From positions 1 to 64,000 of the forward strand of contig JAIKXN010000239.1 of NCBI GenBank assembly GCA_024684055.1: DNA of 64,000 bases, given 5' to 3'. Numbering within the stretch: position 1 is the stretch's first letter; each line of letters opens with the position of its first letter. The DNA is from Lachnospiraceae bacterium. GTDB taxonomy: Bacteria; Bacillota; Clostridia; Lachnospirales; Lachnospiraceae. Of this stretch, positions 15,379-23,967 are shown in pieces. A model generated the notes under the pieces. It saw nothing but the letters and a program-made list of their open reading frames with translations. It was not told where the DNA came from and made no database searches. The position numbers and the translations under genes are program-made.

Positions 15379-16056
15379 ATGAAAAAAGACAATGATAACA
15401 ACAAGAAAAACAATAGCGTTTTGATGTACTGGCTATTGATGATGACCTTGATTTTTCTTGCCGTTAACGTGGTTTTTGTGGTAACTCTTATCAGGATAAA
15501 TTCAGACTTCAATGACCTTAAAACCATAACCGAAGAACAGAATAAAGACTATGAAACCGAGATAGCTACTCTCAAGCAGAAAGTGGCTCTTCTTGCCGAA
15601 CATGTTACCATCGAAAATGAGAACAAAACGCTCGAAGAAGCAAAGAAAATGCCCATCGGAATCCCGGTAAGCGGACAGGCGACAATCCTGTCGGATCCTG
15701 CAGAAGGAGAAGATGAAGCGGAAACCGCGGGAAGCGAGTTCGAAGATTCGCTTATGAACCCCTATACGCTTGAGATTTCACTTGAAAAAGGATCGAAAAT
15801 CATCGCCACCGGGAACGGAATCGTAGCCGAAGTTTCAGGAGATGACATTTACGGGTATCTTGTAAAAATCGACCATCAGAACGGATATCAGACTGTTTTC
15901 AGATACTCCGAAGAACCCAAGATCAAAACGGGAGATGAAGTGTTAAAGGGACAGATGATATTCGAATCGACAAAAAATAAAGGTACCCTCGCATATCATA
16001 TTTTATACGAGAATACCTATATTAATCCTTTTGACATGATTGAAATATCGGGCTGA
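15379..16056 (+). CDS. membrane-anchored M23-family peptidase-like protein with coiled coil
   Basis: N-terminal TM, coiled coil, then LytM-like 'GNGIVAEVSGDDIYGYLVKIDHQNGYQTVFRY...GDEVLKGQMIFES'. Confidence 0.75.
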   Translation: MKKDNDNNKKNNSVLMYWLLMMTLIFLAVNVVFVVTLIRINSDFNDLKTITEEQNKDYETEIATLKQKVALLAEHVTIENENKTLEEAKKMPIGIPVSGQATILSDPAEGEDEAETAGSEFEDSLMNPYTLEISLEKGSKIIATGNGIVAEVSGDDIYGYLVKIDHQNGYQTVFRYSEEPKIKTGDEVLKGQMIFESTKNKGTLAYHILYENTYINPFDMIEISG

Positions 16057-16359
16057 TTATTTCTTGTTTTTCTTTTCGTTAAGTCTGTTGAAGATCATTT
16101 CGTAGCCGTCGCAGCCGTAATTTAGAGATCTGTTGACTCTGCTTATGGTTGCGGTGGACGCACCGGTCTTTTCCACAATTTCCATATAAGTCTTTTTATC
16201 TCTAAGCATGGTAGCGACTTCAAATCTCTGTGAGAGCGAAAGAAGCTCGTTTATTGTGCATAAATCTTCAAAAAATGTATAACAGTCTTCCTTTGTTTCC
16301 AGGCAGAGAATCGCATCAAAAAGAGAGTCCATGGCCTCCGTTTTCAGTTTAGGGTTCAT
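16057..16359 (-). CDS. TrpR-like YerC/YecD family protein
   Basis: 'LCTINELLSLSQRFEVATMLRDKKTYMEIVEKTGASTATISRVNRSLNYGCDGY'. Confidence 0.9.
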   Translation of the reverse strand: MNPKLKTEAMDSLFDAILCLETKEDCYTFFEDLCTINELLSLSQRFEVATMLRDKKTYMEIVEKTGASTATISRVNRSLNYGCDGYEMIFNRLNEKKNKK

Positions 16360-16540
16360 AATTCAACCTCCTGCTTTAACACTTAAAAACTTTAAAACTT
16401 TACACTTCTAAAGTGTTTTAATGAAGTATAACATATCAGTTCATTTAATTCAATCGTTAATTCTTTACTTTTAACGCTTTTTTGAGTATAATAAGACTTG
16501 AACATGCACGGACAGAAAATGGATAAACGCGGTAATAATT

Positions 16541-17226: not shown

Positions 17227-20200
17227 ATGAAAAAGGTTATAATTATTGGTGCTGGTCCTGCCGGATTGACGGCCGGATATGATTTGCTTTCCAAATCATC
17301 GGATTATGATGTCACTATAATAGAGGAAGCCTCTGTTGTAGGCGGTCTTTGTGCACGCTTTGAAAACGAAGAAAACGTTTTGGATGCGGGCGGTCATATG
17401 TATGTTTCAAAGAACCCTGAGGTAAAGAAGTTCTGGAATTCCATTTTACCTGCTCAGGGCAAACCATCCAAAGACGATAAAATTTTAGACAGATATGTTA
17501 AGATTCGTAACGGCGGTCCGGATCCGGATGAAAGTGACGATGTTCTTTTGTCGCGTGAAAAAAACATGAGGATCTTAAAGGATAACAAGTATTATGACAA
17601 TCCTGTTTATTTCAATAAAGACGCCATTAAGAACTTAGGCTTCGCAACGTCTATCAAATCCGGCTTTTCCCAGCTTGGCGGTAACGTTTTCAAACAGAAA
17701 CAGAACAATCTTGAAGATTATTATATAAGTAAATACGGCAAACAGCTTTATTCCAGATTTCTTGAAGAATATCTTAATAAAATCTGGGGTAAAGAACCTT
17801 CACGCATAAGCCAGGAATTCGGTCCGATTTCGGAAAAGAGCCTTATCGCTCCCATTATTTCCATGGAAAAAGCAAATCGTGATGCCGAAAAACTTCCGGC
17901 TCCTTATGCAAACAGATACTATTATCCCAAATACGGTGCATACCAGCTCTGGGAAAATGTTGCTGACAGATTTATTGAAATGGGCGGCAGCATTCATAAG
18001 AACTGCAAGGTTACTTCACTGACTGTCGGTCAGAACAAGATCACTTCCGTTAAATGCTGTGCAGACGGTGATGAATTCGTTGTTCACTGCGATTATGTTA
18101 TTTCTTCAATGCCTATCAGAGATCTGATTCTTGGAATGGAAGGTGTTGAAGGCAACATTTGTCTTGCTGCAGAGAATCTTTCATACCGCGGTATGGTCGG
18201 AGTCTGCGTTGAACTTTCCGAGATTAACTGGAAGAATGATAACCCCGAATTAAAAACTATCGGCGATATTACTGCCGATTCGGTTGTATATATTTCCAAT
18301 CCCAACGTCAAAGTATCGAGAATTCAGGTATATAATAACTTCTCGCCTTACATGATAAGAAACGAGAATCATTATTATCTCGGAATGAACTATTATTGCA
18401 ATGAAGGCGACTATTACTGGTCGATGAGCAACCGTGACTGGAAGCAGGCCATCGTTAAAGACCTTCTTAAACTTGGTATCATTCCTTCCGAAGACTGTCT
18501 TATCGGTTACAACAAAGTTAAATACAGCAAGGCTTTCCCTGCTTACTATGACGGTTATGATAATCTTAACTTTATTAAGAAGTTCCTTAACGGCTTTGGC
18601 AATCTTTACTGTGTAGGACGTAACGGTCAGCACAGATTCAGTTCAATCGATGAAGTTATGAGGACATCTTTCGAAGCGGTTAACAATATTCTCAATAATG
18701 TCGCTTCAAAGGATAATGTTTGGAATATCAATGATGTTTCCGAAGCGGATTCCGATAAATCATACAATTCGGCATTACTTTCCGGTGAAGGTGAATACAG
18801 AGGCAATGGCGTTCCCGTTCAGAAAAAAATCGAGAACAAAGATTCCGAAAATTCGGGCGACTATGTTCCCGCAAGAAGAATGCGCCGTCCCATGATGACA
18901 CCTATTAAGAAAGCAGAGCCCAAGGAAGAATTCAGCGAGCCTGTTATTCTTAATGATTCCGTTGTTATTGCAGCAAGACCCGGAAAAACAATTCCCATTA
19001 CAGTGGATGAAACACCCGAGGTTAATCCTGTAACAGGCAGCGCACTTTATTCATCCGGAAACAATTCCTCATACGTTCAGGAAGTAGCGAAGGCTCCCGT
19101 TGTTTTTGAGGATGAAAGTGAAAATGCAACATTCGAAAATACAGAATCTGTTTACGAAGGTGAACAGGTTTCATTTGAGAACGAAGAAAATGCTGCATTT
19201 GAAGAAAATACAGAAGCTGTATACGAAACAGAAACTCAGGAAGAGTTTGTTTCCTATGATGCAGATGCCGTTTCATTTGAAGAAGAAGTATCTGAAGAAG
19301 CTGCAGCTGAAGATGAAACTGAGGAATTCGAAGATGCAGTAGAAGAAACTGAGGCTGAAGGATATATCGAAGAATTCGAAGAGACAGAAGAAGCAGAGGC
19401 TGAAGAAGAAAACGAAGAATTCGAAGAAGTGGCAGAAGAAGCAGAGGCTGAAGAAGAATTTGCAGAATATGAAACCGAATCCGAAGATAACACAGAGTAT
19501 GATGAAGAAGTTGAAGAATCCGCAGAAGAATTCGCAGAAGATTCTGCTGAAACAGAAGAATTTATAGAAGAAACAGAAGAAGCTGCAGAATATGAGATAG
19601 AATCCGAAGATAACGCAGAGTATGAGGAAGAGGTTGAGGAATCAGCAGATGAATTTGAGACAGTAGATGAAGAAACAGAAGAAGAAAACAGTGAAGCTTC
19701 AAATGAAGATTTTGCTGATGAATTCAGTTCTCTTGAAGAAGAAGTTCAGGAGGAATCTTTTGATGAATCTGTAATCAACGCAAATGCAGTTCCTGAATCT
19801 GAGGAAGCAGTTGAAGAAACAGATGAAGTTTCTGAAGAAGTAAAAGATGATAAAGCAGTTGCCGGGGCTGCAGATTCTTATCCTGAAGAAAACTATGTTG
19901 ACGGATATCCTGTATTTGACATTGAAGCTTTCGAAAGAGAAATGGAAGCTGAAAAGTTAAAGAGACAGAAAGCAAAAGAAGAAGCTCTTAAAGCAGCCGA
20001 AGCAGAAAAAGAAATCTCAGAAGAAACTGCTGCGGATATAGCTGAGGAAGAAATCGAAACCGAAATTCCTGCCGAAGCAGAAACAGAAGAAGTTGCAGAA
20101 GAACAGGAATATGAAGAAGTTGGATTCGAAGAAACAGAAGCTGAACAAGCAGATGAAGAAATCGATGAAGCCGTAGAAGAAGAAACTGAAGAATTCGAAG

Positions 20201-23200
20201 AAGCAGTAGAAGAAACCGAAGCCGAAGAAGAAACCGAAGAATTCGAAGAAGCAGCAGAAGAAGCAGAGGCTGAAGAAGAGATCGAAGAATTCGAAGAAGC
20301 AGCAGAAGAAACCGAAGCCGAAGAAGAAACCGAAGAATTTGAAGAAGCAGCAGAAGAAGCAGAGGCTGAAGAAGAAACTGAAGAATTCGAAGAAGCAGCA
20401 GAAGAAGCAGAAGTCGAAGAAGAAACCGAGGTCGAAGAAGAAACCGAAGAATTCGAAGAAGCGGCAGAAGAAGCAGAAGCTGAAGAAGAAATCGAAGATT
20501 CTGAAGAAGCGGATGAAGTAGAAAATGAATCAGTTAGCGGTTCTCACACAAAGACGATCAGCGGCATAGAGGCTCAGGAAATTCTTGAAAAATATTTGCT
20601 CAATGCAGATATACAAAACGTTGAGAAGAATTTCAATTTTGAGATCGCTGATACAGAGGAAGAAGCTGAAGAAGAAACAACAGATACTACTGAGGATAAA
20701 GAAGAAAAGGCTGAGGATAATACTGAAACTAATGAGACTGAGAATGAGGAAGAAATCAGTCTGCCCGGCGCAAGGACAAGCTTTTCCAGAAAATCTCACG
20801 GTATTATCGGCAATTCCGGTGCGTTTGGCAGAGCACAGGGCGGCGGCGTTAGAAAGAATATTAAGAATATGTTCGCCAAAGTTCTTAACTTCTCTGACAA
20901 GAGAAATGCAGAAGGAGTTAACGAGGCTGAAGTTGTTATTTCCAGAGAAAAAGTCAATGAGAATACAGATGCAGGTGCTGCACCCGTTACATTCTCGAAA
21001 GTTGAAACATTTGAACCTGATTTTGTTTCCGGAAAACCCAATCCTCACGAACGATATATTGATAAAGATGAGATTGAAAAATCATCAAATGCCGATTACA
21101 GCAAGTACAGTATTAATCCTTTTGATACTGTAATTTCCAGACCGGCTGAATTTGATAATGAAAATAAAGATCCCGATTCCGAAGAGTCCGGTATTGTTTT
21201 CGTGAAGAAATCCGAGTATTCAGGTGAAAAGAGAGAGAACAAGTACGAGGAATACGTTAAAAAGAATAACGGAGAATCAGAGCCTGAAGAGGCAAATGAA
21301 GAAGTAATCGAAGAAGTTGTCGAAGATACAGAAGAAGCAGTTTATGAAACTGAAAATGAAGTTGCAGAAGCAGTCGATGAAGAAACATCAGTAGAAACCG
21401 GTGAATTTGAGGAATCAGAGGCTGCTGAAGAAACGGAAGAGTTCGAAGAAACCGAAGAAGCTGAAGCAGAAGAATTAGCTGAAGAGTTCGAAGAAACCGA
21501 AGAAGCTGAAACTGAAGAATTAGTTGAAGAATTCGAAGAAACAGAAGAGGCCGAAACTGAAGAATTAGTTGAAGAATTCGAAGAAACAGAAGAAGCTGAA
21601 GTAGAAGAATTAGTTGAAGAATTAGCTGAAGAATTCGAAGAGACTGAAGAAGCTGAAGCCGAAGAAGAAGTCGAAGAATTCGAAGAGGCTGAAGAAGCCG
21701 AAGTTGAAGAAGAAGTCGAAGAATTCGAAGAGGCTGAAGAAGCTGAAGCCGAAGAAGAAACTGAAGAATTAGAAGAAGCTGAAGCTGAAGAAGAAGCAGA
21801 AGAATTCGAAGAGGTTGAAGAAGCCGAAGTTGAAGAAGAAGTCGAAGAATTCGAAGAGGCTGAAGAAGCTGAAGTTGAAGAAGAAACAGAAGGAACCGAA
21901 GAAACTGAAACAGAAGAAGTTTCAGAAGAGAATATTTCGTTTGAGGACGATGTAAGAAACGAAGAAGCGGAGGAAGAATCTGCAGAAGAAACATCATCCG
22001 ATGCAAAAGAAGATGCTGATGAATTTGCCAAATTCGAAGAAAATCTTGAAGAAGATTCACTTTCAAAGATTGATGAACAGGCAGCCAGCAGAGCTATTGT
22101 TAACAGATGGGGTGTTGGATTCCATGGAACAACAGACAGCCTGACAGAGCCGGCTGAACATGATGACAGAATAGTCAGAGGAACATCGAGCGCGCTTTTC
22201 GGAGACGGTTTTGCTTTAAGCAACGTTGGCAGAAAAGGTGCTATGGACCATGTTCTTGATGACCTTGACGGCGGCAAGGGATATACTTCTTCTCATATTT
22301 CAAACAATGAAATCAAGAAAGAAGATAATTCGTACAGTTCTGCTTCAAGAGGCGATAATGATAATTCTTATACGATTATTAAGGATTCAGGTTCTCAGTA
22401 CGACTATTCCAAGATCAAGAAAGAAAAGACGCCTGAAGAACTTGAGGATGAGATGTTTGCCGAACTCGAAAGAGAATACGGAGCAGTTGATCACAGCAAA
22501 CTTAATCCCAGAAAGAGCTTAAGATACAGAAATAAACCTGTACGTACTGAACAACCTGAAGAAAAGAAACAGGAAAATGTAATTATAAAAGATGCTCCTT
22601 CTTTCTATAATTCTTCAATTTCAGAAAGAAAAGAAGAATTTAAACCTGTTGAAGAAAAGAAAACAGAAGAAGCAAAAGAAGTTTCTGCCAATGAAGCAGT
22701 TGTAAAGGCTGATTTCACAAGTGAAGCAGAGAAAGTTTCCTTCAGTGAAACTGCAAGTCCAGACGAAATCTTAATTTCAAAAGAAGCTGCAAATGACATC
22801 GATAGTACGGTTGTCGATGAATTCGCTTCTGCAAGTGAAAGCATTGAAAATGAATCTGCTGCAACAGATACTTCATTTAAGGAAGAATTTGTAAGCGAGC
22901 CTTCGCAGGAAACAAGTGTCGATGAGGCAGCTGCTGATGATGAGAAGACAAAGCTTATCAAAGAATTATTCGGTGACGGTACGTCAAAAGCGGCTTTTGA
23001 AGCAAATGTTGATGAGTTTGAGACGACGGCTGAACATAAGGACAAAGACGGCTTTGTGGATGATAAATTATTTGAAAAATCCGATTTGAAGAATGATTCG
23101 ATCTCGCCCTCGCCTTCAATAAGCCAGACAGCAAAGAAACCTGTTTATTTAGGAAAAGAATATGATACTTCAATAGTGTTCAAGAACGCCAGAGTAATCA

Positions 23201-23562
23201 AGAGTACAAAGATTACAAGAAATGTTGAAGAACAGCCTAAGGAAGTAAAGAAAGAAGATAAACTTGAAAGAGTTTTCAGCGATAAACAGAAGGTGATTGC
23301 CGTAATCAGAAACGGTGAATATATTCCCGTTAAGGATGAAGAATCTGTAAAAAAGCCTGAAGCGGTAAAGGAAACCGTCCCTTCGGAATCGAGAAACAAA
23401 AAGAAAAGAAACAAAAAAGGCAAGAACAAAAAAGCAAACGGAGATTCATCGGAGGAAATAGTTTCGGCTCCCATTAGTGTTGTAATAGATGCAAGAGAAA
23501 CCACAGATATTACAAAACCTTTGGAGAGCCCTCAATCAAGAAAAAGAAATTATAAATATTGA
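17227..23562 (+). CDS. giant protein: N-terminal FAD/NAD(P)-dependent oxidoreductase (amine oxidase/protoporphyrinogen oxidase-like) with a very long Glu-rich repetitive C-terminal region
   Basis: N-terminal Rossmann 'KVIIIGAGPAGLTAGYDL...VGGLCARFENEENVLDAGGHMY' and 'YGKQLYSRFLEEYLNKIWGKEPSRIS'; C-terminal EEFEEAEEAEAEEE repeats; basic end 'KKKRNKKGKNKK'. Confidence 0.85.
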   Translation: MKKVIIIGAGPAGLTAGYDLLSKSSDYDVTIIEEASVVGGLCARFENEENVLDAGGHMYVSKNPEVKKFWNSILPAQGKPSKDDKILDRYVKIRNGGPDPDESDDVLLSREKNMRILKDNKYYDNPVYFNKDAIKNLGFATSIKSGFSQLGGNVFKQKQNNLEDYYISKYGKQLYSRFLEEYLNKIWGKEPSRISQEFGPISEKSLIAPIISMEKANRDAEKLPAPYANRYYYPKYGAYQLWENVADRFIEMGGSIHKNCKVTSLTVGQNKITSVKCCADGDEFVVHCDYVISSMPIRDLILGMEGVEGNICLAAENLSYRGMVGVCVELSEINWKNDNPELKTIGDITADSVVYISNPNVKVSRIQVYNNFSPYMIRNENHYYLGMNYYCNEGDYYWSMSNRDWKQAIVKDLLKLGIIPSEDCLIGYNKVKYSKAFPAYYDGYDNLNFIKKFLNGFGNLYCVGRNGQHRFSSIDEVMRTSFEAVNNILNNVASKDNVWNINDVSEADSDKSYNSALLSGEGEYRGNGVPVQKKIENKDSENSGDYVPARRMRRPMMTPIKKAEPKEEFSEPVILNDSVVIAARPGKTIPITVDETPEVNPVTGSALYSSGNNSSYVQEVAKAPVVFEDESENATFENTESVYEGEQVSFENEENAAFEENTEAVYETETQEEFVSYDADAVSFEEEVSEEAAAEDETEEFEDAVEETEAEGYIEEFEETEEAEAEEENEEFEEVAEEAEAEEEFAEYETESEDNTEYDEEVEESAEEFAEDSAETEEFIEETEEAAEYEIESEDNAEYEEEVEESADEFETVDEETEEENSEASNEDFADEFSSLEEEVQEESFDESVINANAVPESEEAVEETDEVSEEVKDDKAVAGAADSYPEENYVDGYPVFDIEAFEREMEAEKLKRQKAKEEALKAAEAEKEISEETAADIAEEEIETEIPAEAETEEVAEEQEYEEVGFEETEAEQADEEIDEAVEEETEEFEEAVEETEAEEETEEFEEAAEEAEAEEEIEEFEEAAEETEAEEETEEFEEAAEEAEAEEETEEFEEAAEEAEVEEETEVEEETEEFEEAAEEAEAEEEIEDSEEADEVENESVSGSHTKTISGIEAQEILEKYLLNADIQNVEKNFNFEIADTEEEAEEETTDTTEDKEEKAEDNTETNETENEEEISLPGARTSFSRKSHGIIGNSGAFGRAQGGGVRKNIKNMFAKVLNFSDKRNAEGVNEAEVVISREKVNENTDAGAAPVTFSKVETFEPDFVSGKPNPHERYIDKDEIEKSSNADYSKYSINPFDTVISRPAEFDNENKDPDSEESGIVFVKKSEYSGEKRENKYEEYVKKNNGESEPEEANEEVIEEVVEDTEEAVYETENEVAEAVDEETSVETGEFEESEAAEETEEFEETEEAEAEELAEEFEETEEAETEELVEEFEETEEAETEELVEEFEETEEAEVEELVEELAEEFEETEEAEAEEEVEEFEEAEEAEVEEEVEEFEEAEEAEAEEETEELEEAEAEEEAEEFEEVEEAEVEEEVEEFEEAEEAEVEEETEGTEETETEEVSEENISFEDDVRNEEAEEESAEETSSDAKEDADEFAKFEENLEEDSLSKIDEQAASRAIVNRWGVGFHGTTDSLTEPAEHDDRIVRGTSSALFGDGFALSNVGRKGAMDHVLDDLDGGKGYTSSHISNNEIKKEDNSYSSASRGDNDNSYTIIKDSGSQYDYSKIKKEKTPEELEDEMFAELEREYGAVDHSKLNPRKSLRYRNKPVRTEQPEEKKQENVIIKDAPSFYNSSISERKEEFKPVEEKKTEEAKEVSANEAVVKADFTSEAEKVSFSETASPDEILISKEAANDIDSTVVDEFASASESIENESAATDTSFKEEFVSEPSQETSVDEAAADDEKTKLIKELFGDGTSKAAFEANVDEFETTAEHKDKDGFVDDKLFEKSDLKNDSISPSPSISQTAKKPVYLGKEYDTSIVFKNARVIKSTKITRNVEEQPKEVKKEDKLERVFSDKQKVIAVIRNGEYIPVKDEESVKKPEAVKETVPSESRNKKKRNKKGKNKKANGDSSEEIVSAPISVVIDARETTDITKPLESPQSRKRNYKY
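19300..21960 (+). repeat. degenerate Glu/Ala-rich coding repeats (polypurine, GAA-rich)
   Basis: Repeated 'gaagaattcgaagaagcagcagaagaagcagaggctgaagaag'-type units in several blocks. Confidence 0.85.
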
Positions 23563-23703
23563 TCATTTTAGACAATATGATTGAAAATATAATTTTTTGT
23601 TGACAAATTTCACAAATTGCGGATAATATAACAATGTATGTATACATTAAATCGTCCGTGTCCGGCTTTAATGTTCAAGATTATTAAAATGGAGGTGTAG
23701 GTC

Positions 23704-23967
23704 TTGGCTAATATCAAATCTGCAAAGAAGAGAATTGAAGTATCTGCAAGAAATGCTGAGAGAAATAAAGCTATCCGTTCAGGCGTTAAGACAGCTGTAA
23801 AGAAAGTTTACGCTGCAATCGATTCTAACGACAAGGAAGCTGCTAAAGCTGCATTAATCAATGCAACCAGCGTTATCGAGAAAGCTACAAGCAAGGGCGT
23901 TTATCATAAGAATTACGCTTCAAGAAAAGTTTCTCGTCTTTCTCTTGCTGTTAATAAAATGGACTAA
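23704..23967 (+). CDS. rpsT: 30S ribosomal protein S20
   Basis: 'MANIKSAKKRIEVSARNAERNKAIRSGVKTAVKKV'; TTG start after ggaggtg. Confidence 0.96.
   Translation: MANIKSAKKRIEVSARNAERNKAIRSGVKTAVKKVYAAIDSNDKEAAKAALINATSVIEKATSKGVYHKNYASRKVSRLSLAVNKMD

Follow-up and report, generated by a model that had tools for sequence, protein, structure and literature searches.

The locus of the tailed flavoprotein gene

The window, a stretch of 64,000 nucleotides from a Lachnospiraceae bacterium (contig JAIKXN010000239.1, assembly GCA_024684055.1), belongs to a 3.0-Mb draft genome of 264 contigs. Positions 17227-23562 of the forward strand form a single uninterrupted open reading frame of 2,111 amino acids, which starts with ATG and has the Shine-Dalgarno-like AAAAGGGG a short way 5' of it. 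It encodes a flavoprotein of about 500 residues (aa 1-503, the head) followed by a tail of about 1,600 residues. The initial annotation had described a one-frame fusion of an oxidoreductase to an acidic repeat tail, and this is borne out. The tail has a net charge of -423, with 35% Glu+Asp and 44% charged residues. Tandem arrays of the 45/48-bp type are found in its coding DNA at 19282-19458, 20176-20429 and 21427-21909, and 17 of the 22 EEFEE-coding sites of the genome fall within this gene. The features around the reading frame are as follows.

15379-16056, forward strand: membrane-anchored M23/LytM-domain protein with one N-terminal membrane helix
16541-17194, forward strand: DUF1836 protein, ending 32 bp 5' of the reading frame
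17227-18735, forward strand: FAD domain with the fold of UDP-galactopyranose mutases (UGM), aa 1-503, from NCBIfam PRK07208.1-2, profile and structure matches
23704-23967: rpsT, followed by lepA

The tailed gene is kept at one conserved locus with the order M23, DUF1836, tailed gene, lepA. The M23/LytM protein is the most constant neighbour and is present in nearly all tailed genomes. It weakly resembles SpoIIQ. By eye it seems to lack the usual zinc-ligand motifs and may thus be a LytM factor without catalytic activity. The DUF1836 gene adjoins the tailed gene in most, not all, tailed genomes and is absent in several genomes of clades 2 and 3. With a sigma-70-like site at 16464, 5' of the DUF1836 gene, the DUF1836 and flavoprotein genes probably form one operon. 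A near-consensus promoter-like site lies at 23600, ahead of rpsT. Between the M23 and DUF1836 genes, a Trp-repressor-family (YerC-like) regulator is encoded on the opposite strand (16057-16359).

Fold and active site of the head

The head scores 471 bits against NCBIfam PRK07208.1-2 (NF005546), above the cut-off of 418 bits. This family is named a 'hypothetical' FAD oxidoreductase, and its members seen in the order outside the genus are tailless with frames of about 430-604 aa, unlike the window protein. In sequence-profile comparison, the UGMs from A. fumigatus (E 6e-23) and T. cruzi (4dsg, E 2e-18) rank as the best relatives of solved structure. An AlphaFold model of the head is mostly confident, and the first 15 Foldseek matches to it are all UGMs, with 4dsg on top (target TM 0.81); the AlphaFold models of this study are built on small alignments (22 and 8 sequences). 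By profile and by predicted structure, the head is thus of the UGM-type FAD fold. The earlier label 'amine oxidase type' was too loose, the closest relatives of solved structure being UGMs rather than amine oxidases. The head shares with eukaryotic-type UGM (4dsg from T. cruzi; 3uka/3ukk from A. fumigatus) the fold, the FAD motif, the GGH loop and the equivalents of R327 and R447, although the identity is only 16-18%. Unlike these enzymes, the lineage of the window protein lacks the equivalents of R182, Y419, Y453 and N457 and carries the 1,600-aa disordered tail.

The UGM residues were mapped by HMM alignment to the A. fumigatus enzyme, where the native number is the chain index plus one; this numbering agrees with the PDB mutant titles H63A, R182K, Y317A and R327A/K. 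The residues checked, H63, R182, Y317, R327, Y419, R447, Y453 and N457, correspond in this order to H57, S202, Y355, R365, F437, R465, F471 and S473 of the window protein. Hence four of them are substituted, and H57, Y355, R365 and R465 are retained. The initial annotation had missed this loss. In T. cruzi UGM, R176 and R327 lower the catalytic barriers and turnover is strongly cut in R176A, while Tyr395 and Tyr429 hold the UDP phosphate and their replacement by Phe reduces activity (PMC4192007). From constant offsets between the two numberings we infer that R176 corresponds to R182, and Tyr395/Tyr429 to Y419/Y453, of the A. fumigatus enzyme.

The complete residue set (H, R, Y, R, Y, R, Y and N) is present in all 20 tailless relatives examined and also in those tailed proteins that belong to clades 2 and 3. 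It is missing from the clade-1 heads, from G240, G016 and G012, and from the pair G018/G241. Substitutions are therefore found in two tailed lineages, that of the window and one other, versus none of the 20 tailless relatives, and on trees the substituted heads fall into two or more distinct groups, all inside the tailed proteins. The position equivalent to R182 is occupied by S, A, L, T, Y or K in the substituted proteins. In close pairs that already lack the UGM residues, dN/dS of the head is about 0.02-0.03. The head is thus strongly constrained rather than decaying, and it must still have a specific task, which may be catalysis on a different substrate. Classical Glf (PF03275) was considered as a substitute for the lost activity; it is present in just 3 of the 16 genus genomes searched and hence is not a general replacement.

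Conserved islands and variable linkers of the tail

Identity to the window protein was compared in five lineages (G000, G003, G008, G009 and G240). The mean is 71% for the head and 26% for the entire tail. Within the tail, however, six islands are 73-78% identical, about as conserved as the head, versus 17-29% for the acidic blocks; a shorter seventh island at the C-terminus reaches 62%. The tail features are listed below with their identity over these lineages.

18742-18825, forward strand: island 1a, YNSALLSGEGEYRGN, aa 506-533, 76%
18865-18933, forward strand: island 1b, basic, RRMRRPMMTPIKK, aa 547-569, 73%
18940-18993, forward strand: island 1c, NDSVVIAARPGKTI, aa 572-589, 76%
19267-19731, forward strand: acidic linker block 1, aa 681-835, 17%, tandem repeats
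20035-20517, forward strand: acidic linker block 2, aa 937-1097, 24%, 48/96-bp repeats
20749-21030, forward strand: partly conserved islands ISLPG...FSRK and VISREK...VTFSKVETF...NPHER, in the close clade and partly in G240
21301-22023, forward strand: acidic linker block 3, aa 1359-1599, 29%, 45/90-bp repeats
22057-22107, forward strand: island 4, SLSKIDEQAASRAIV, aa 1611-1627, 75%
23152-23229, forward strand: island 5, DTSIVFKNARVIKSTKIT, aa 1976-2001, 78%
23263-23337, forward strand: island 6, SDKQKVIAVIRNGEYIPV, aa 2013-2037, 77%
23389-23559, forward strand: basic stretch KKKRNKKGKNKK and conserved C-terminus APISVVIDARETTDITKPLESP

The initial annotation had made its reading depend on conservation of the islands in relatives; several are as conserved as the enzyme, and the linkers are not. 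Conservation is strong for one of the three islands it quoted, YDTSIVFKNARVIKSTKITR. The second keeps (D)EQAASRAIV in every lineage tested, but its LYG..FA...MDHMLDDLDGGK part is absent from G240; in the third, ISLPG...FSR is conserved and the remainder is not. Islands 1a, 1b, 1c and 6 and the C-terminus extend this set. In the close clade, island 4 is followed by LYG..FA.S...MD.MLDDLDGGK.

Disorder of the tail, which the initial annotation had assumed in its linkers, is supported by prediction: an ortholog's tail modelled with AlphaFold has a mean pLDDT of 36 and a pTM of 0.20, with weak strands at island 1c. Pfam gave no match in the tail of the window protein, and searches with individual islands down to E 10 gave sub-threshold matches only (best 0.0028-0.0051). 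Linker lengths vary in frame by up to hundreds of residues between orthologs. In close pairs, dN/dS increases from the head to the non-acidic tail (0.07-0.12) and further to the acidic linkers (0.2-0.37), all below 1; distant pairs were left out because their synonymous sites are saturated. This ranking, together with the in-frame length changes, indicates that translation and selection extend over the whole tail. As a possible multivalent sticker, a short repeated beta-strand motif ([VIL][VIFTYS][VIFL].[KR]) was considered, but in most orthologs it was not above shuffled tails. Likewise, the C-terminal island has no second copy in its own genome and is thus not a module used elsewhere in it.

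Few of the islands extend over the deep clades of the genus, but a short C-terminal element does. Compared with shuffles, this element gives z 9.8 for G000-G012 and z 7.5 for G012-G022; G000-G022 and G000-clade 3, compared alone, are not significant, and the element was undetected in the tails of G001, G006, G019 and G239. Clade 3 shares mainly its KVIAVIKNG-type motif, which is that of island 6 and recurs in the tails of clade 3, G012 and G022. Island 5 is akin to the tail of G012 and, via G012, to that of G022. The tails of G022, G011, G012, G001, G006 and G019 are weakly acidic, with net charges of -11 to -32; extreme acidity is consequently not the shared property. The second tailed lineage without the UGM residues, G018 (L058) and G241 (L120), has quite different tails, with AEEKRLAEEKRKAEEEAER repeats in G018. 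The tail of L048 (G002) differs from those aligned with it by an insertion of YYDENG-type repeats (YDENGTPYYLDENGNAIYYDENG).

Distribution and origin of the tail

The protein is encoded by 30 of the 31 genus genomes; we take the genus to be rumen-type from the RUG naming of the closest named relative found, MAG isolate RUG11047. Where no contig end cuts the gene, copies at this locus comprise 974-2,168 aa, with tails of 500-1,700 residues, and the tail is present at every sufficiently complete locus. Separate head and tail genes in orthologs would have spoken for an artificial fusion; in the genus the two parts are fused wherever the contig permits a view. G004, G014 and G244 have a second, tailless copy. 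Outside the genus, among 200 genomes from the family and 392 from the order, the frames are about 430-604 aa long, and no tail was found among the relatives measured. A 724-aa frame in the non-genus genome G231 was considered as an independent tail and turned out to contain N-runs inside an ordinary enzyme. In the tree, the tailed proteins make up one side of a weakly supported branch (73, quick method), and in an earlier tree the tailed/tailless pattern needs two label changes. A single origin of the tail is therefore not proven.

Possible function of the tailed protein

Enzymes with a disordered scaffold tail are already known, RNase E being an example. The C-terminal scaffold of RNase E in gamma-Proteobacteria resembles the window protein in its enzyme head, its long, disordered, biased and repeat-containing tail and its conserved short microdomains, and its motifs have been suggested to derive from tandem repeats (PMC4435900). 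The window protein shows the same anatomy, a long tail predicted to be disordered with short conserved motifs between divergent linkers behind an enzyme, and this favours a scaffold or tether. The likeness is one of analogy rather than homology: the enzymes are unrelated, the motifs here are candidate binding sites, and the original catalysis is apparently compromised in some of our lineages, unlike in RNase E. PopZ, the polar organiser of Caulobacter, is likewise an intrinsically disordered bacterial organiser and forms condensates (PMC9512792); it shares no homology with the window protein, for which condensation would be hypothetical, and it has no enzyme head. A narrow literature search found no prior report of a disordered scaffold tail on a UGM-type flavoenzyme.

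Since several species have lost key active-site residues yet keep the tail, we suggest that the window protein is now a tether or organiser. On balance we lean towards a genus-specific scaffold protein built on a UGM-fold flavoprotein, with the mutase chemistry lost or changed in the lineage of the window. The initial annotation had proposed docking motifs on a cytoplasmic scaffold; the conserved islands, divergent linkers and predicted disorder fit this, and docking remains putative. In such a scaffold the folded flavoprotein would be an FAD-binding head, and the islands would act as short linear motifs, each binding either a partner or a further copy of the same protein. Repulsive spacers would be provided by the acidic repeats, and the basic C-terminal stretch may bind an acidic surface or the protein's own acidic blocks. 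In tailed lineages that keep the UGM residues the head is possibly still an active mutase localised by the tail; in the lineage of the window the tail function would have persisted while the original chemistry was lost or changed. More tentatively, the protein could be a pseudoenzyme hub, whose FAD-binding and possibly redox-sensing head no longer isomerises sugars and nucleates a multi-motif scaffold or condensate in one genus, with two or more losses of the mutase residues following the gain of the tail. Against a scaffold, the islands differ greatly between the main clades, and H57, R365 and R465 are retained in a head of very low dN/dS.

The main rival is a working enzyme: a sugar mutase or oxidoreductase whose substrate specificity is altered in the lineage of the window, merely localised or regulated by its tail at the envelope-glycan machinery. 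It agrees with the low dN/dS of the head, with the four retained residues, Y355 included, with the full UGM set in clades 2 and 3, and with the position of some tailless copies next to PMT-type glycosyltransferases, GtrA, epimerases and aminotransferases. The tailed gene itself, however, lies outside such glycan clusters, and the varied residues at the R182 position do not amount to a single new one; we regard this enzyme as a serious possibility, though a less probable one than the scaffold. It is unlikely that the tail is mostly a neutral repeat expansion serving only solubility. The acidic blocks are indeed poorly conserved tandem repeats of varying length, but the islands match the enzyme in conservation, dN/dS in close pairs stays well under 1 along the entire tail, and every sufficiently complete locus of the genus has a tail; for the islands this explanation is already largely refuted. 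A nucleic-acid mimic or cation buffer instead of a multi-partner scaffold would account for the long Glu-rich blocks and the charge of -423, but the weakly acidic tails elsewhere in the genus make it improbable. An assembly or gene-prediction artefact joining two genes can practically be dismissed: many of the genomes are fragmented drafts and repeats can misassemble, but the same fusion occurs in many independent assemblies with enzyme identities of 41-76%, and the clade-1 assemblies share the same islands and C-terminus.

Tailless proteins, tailed proteins with an intact site and tailed proteins with a substituted site coexist among related species, a natural series in which a turn from enzyme to organiser could be studied. 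The islands, kept through hundreds of residues of drifting linker, add a well-defined group of short motifs as candidates for binding. Bactofilin is encoded in 14 of the 16 genus genomes searched; since it is unlinked to the tailed gene, the co-occurrence is only a lead. In a sister species, a 2,341-aa frame (G011:C4:36812-37411) gives two weak bactofilin-like matches.
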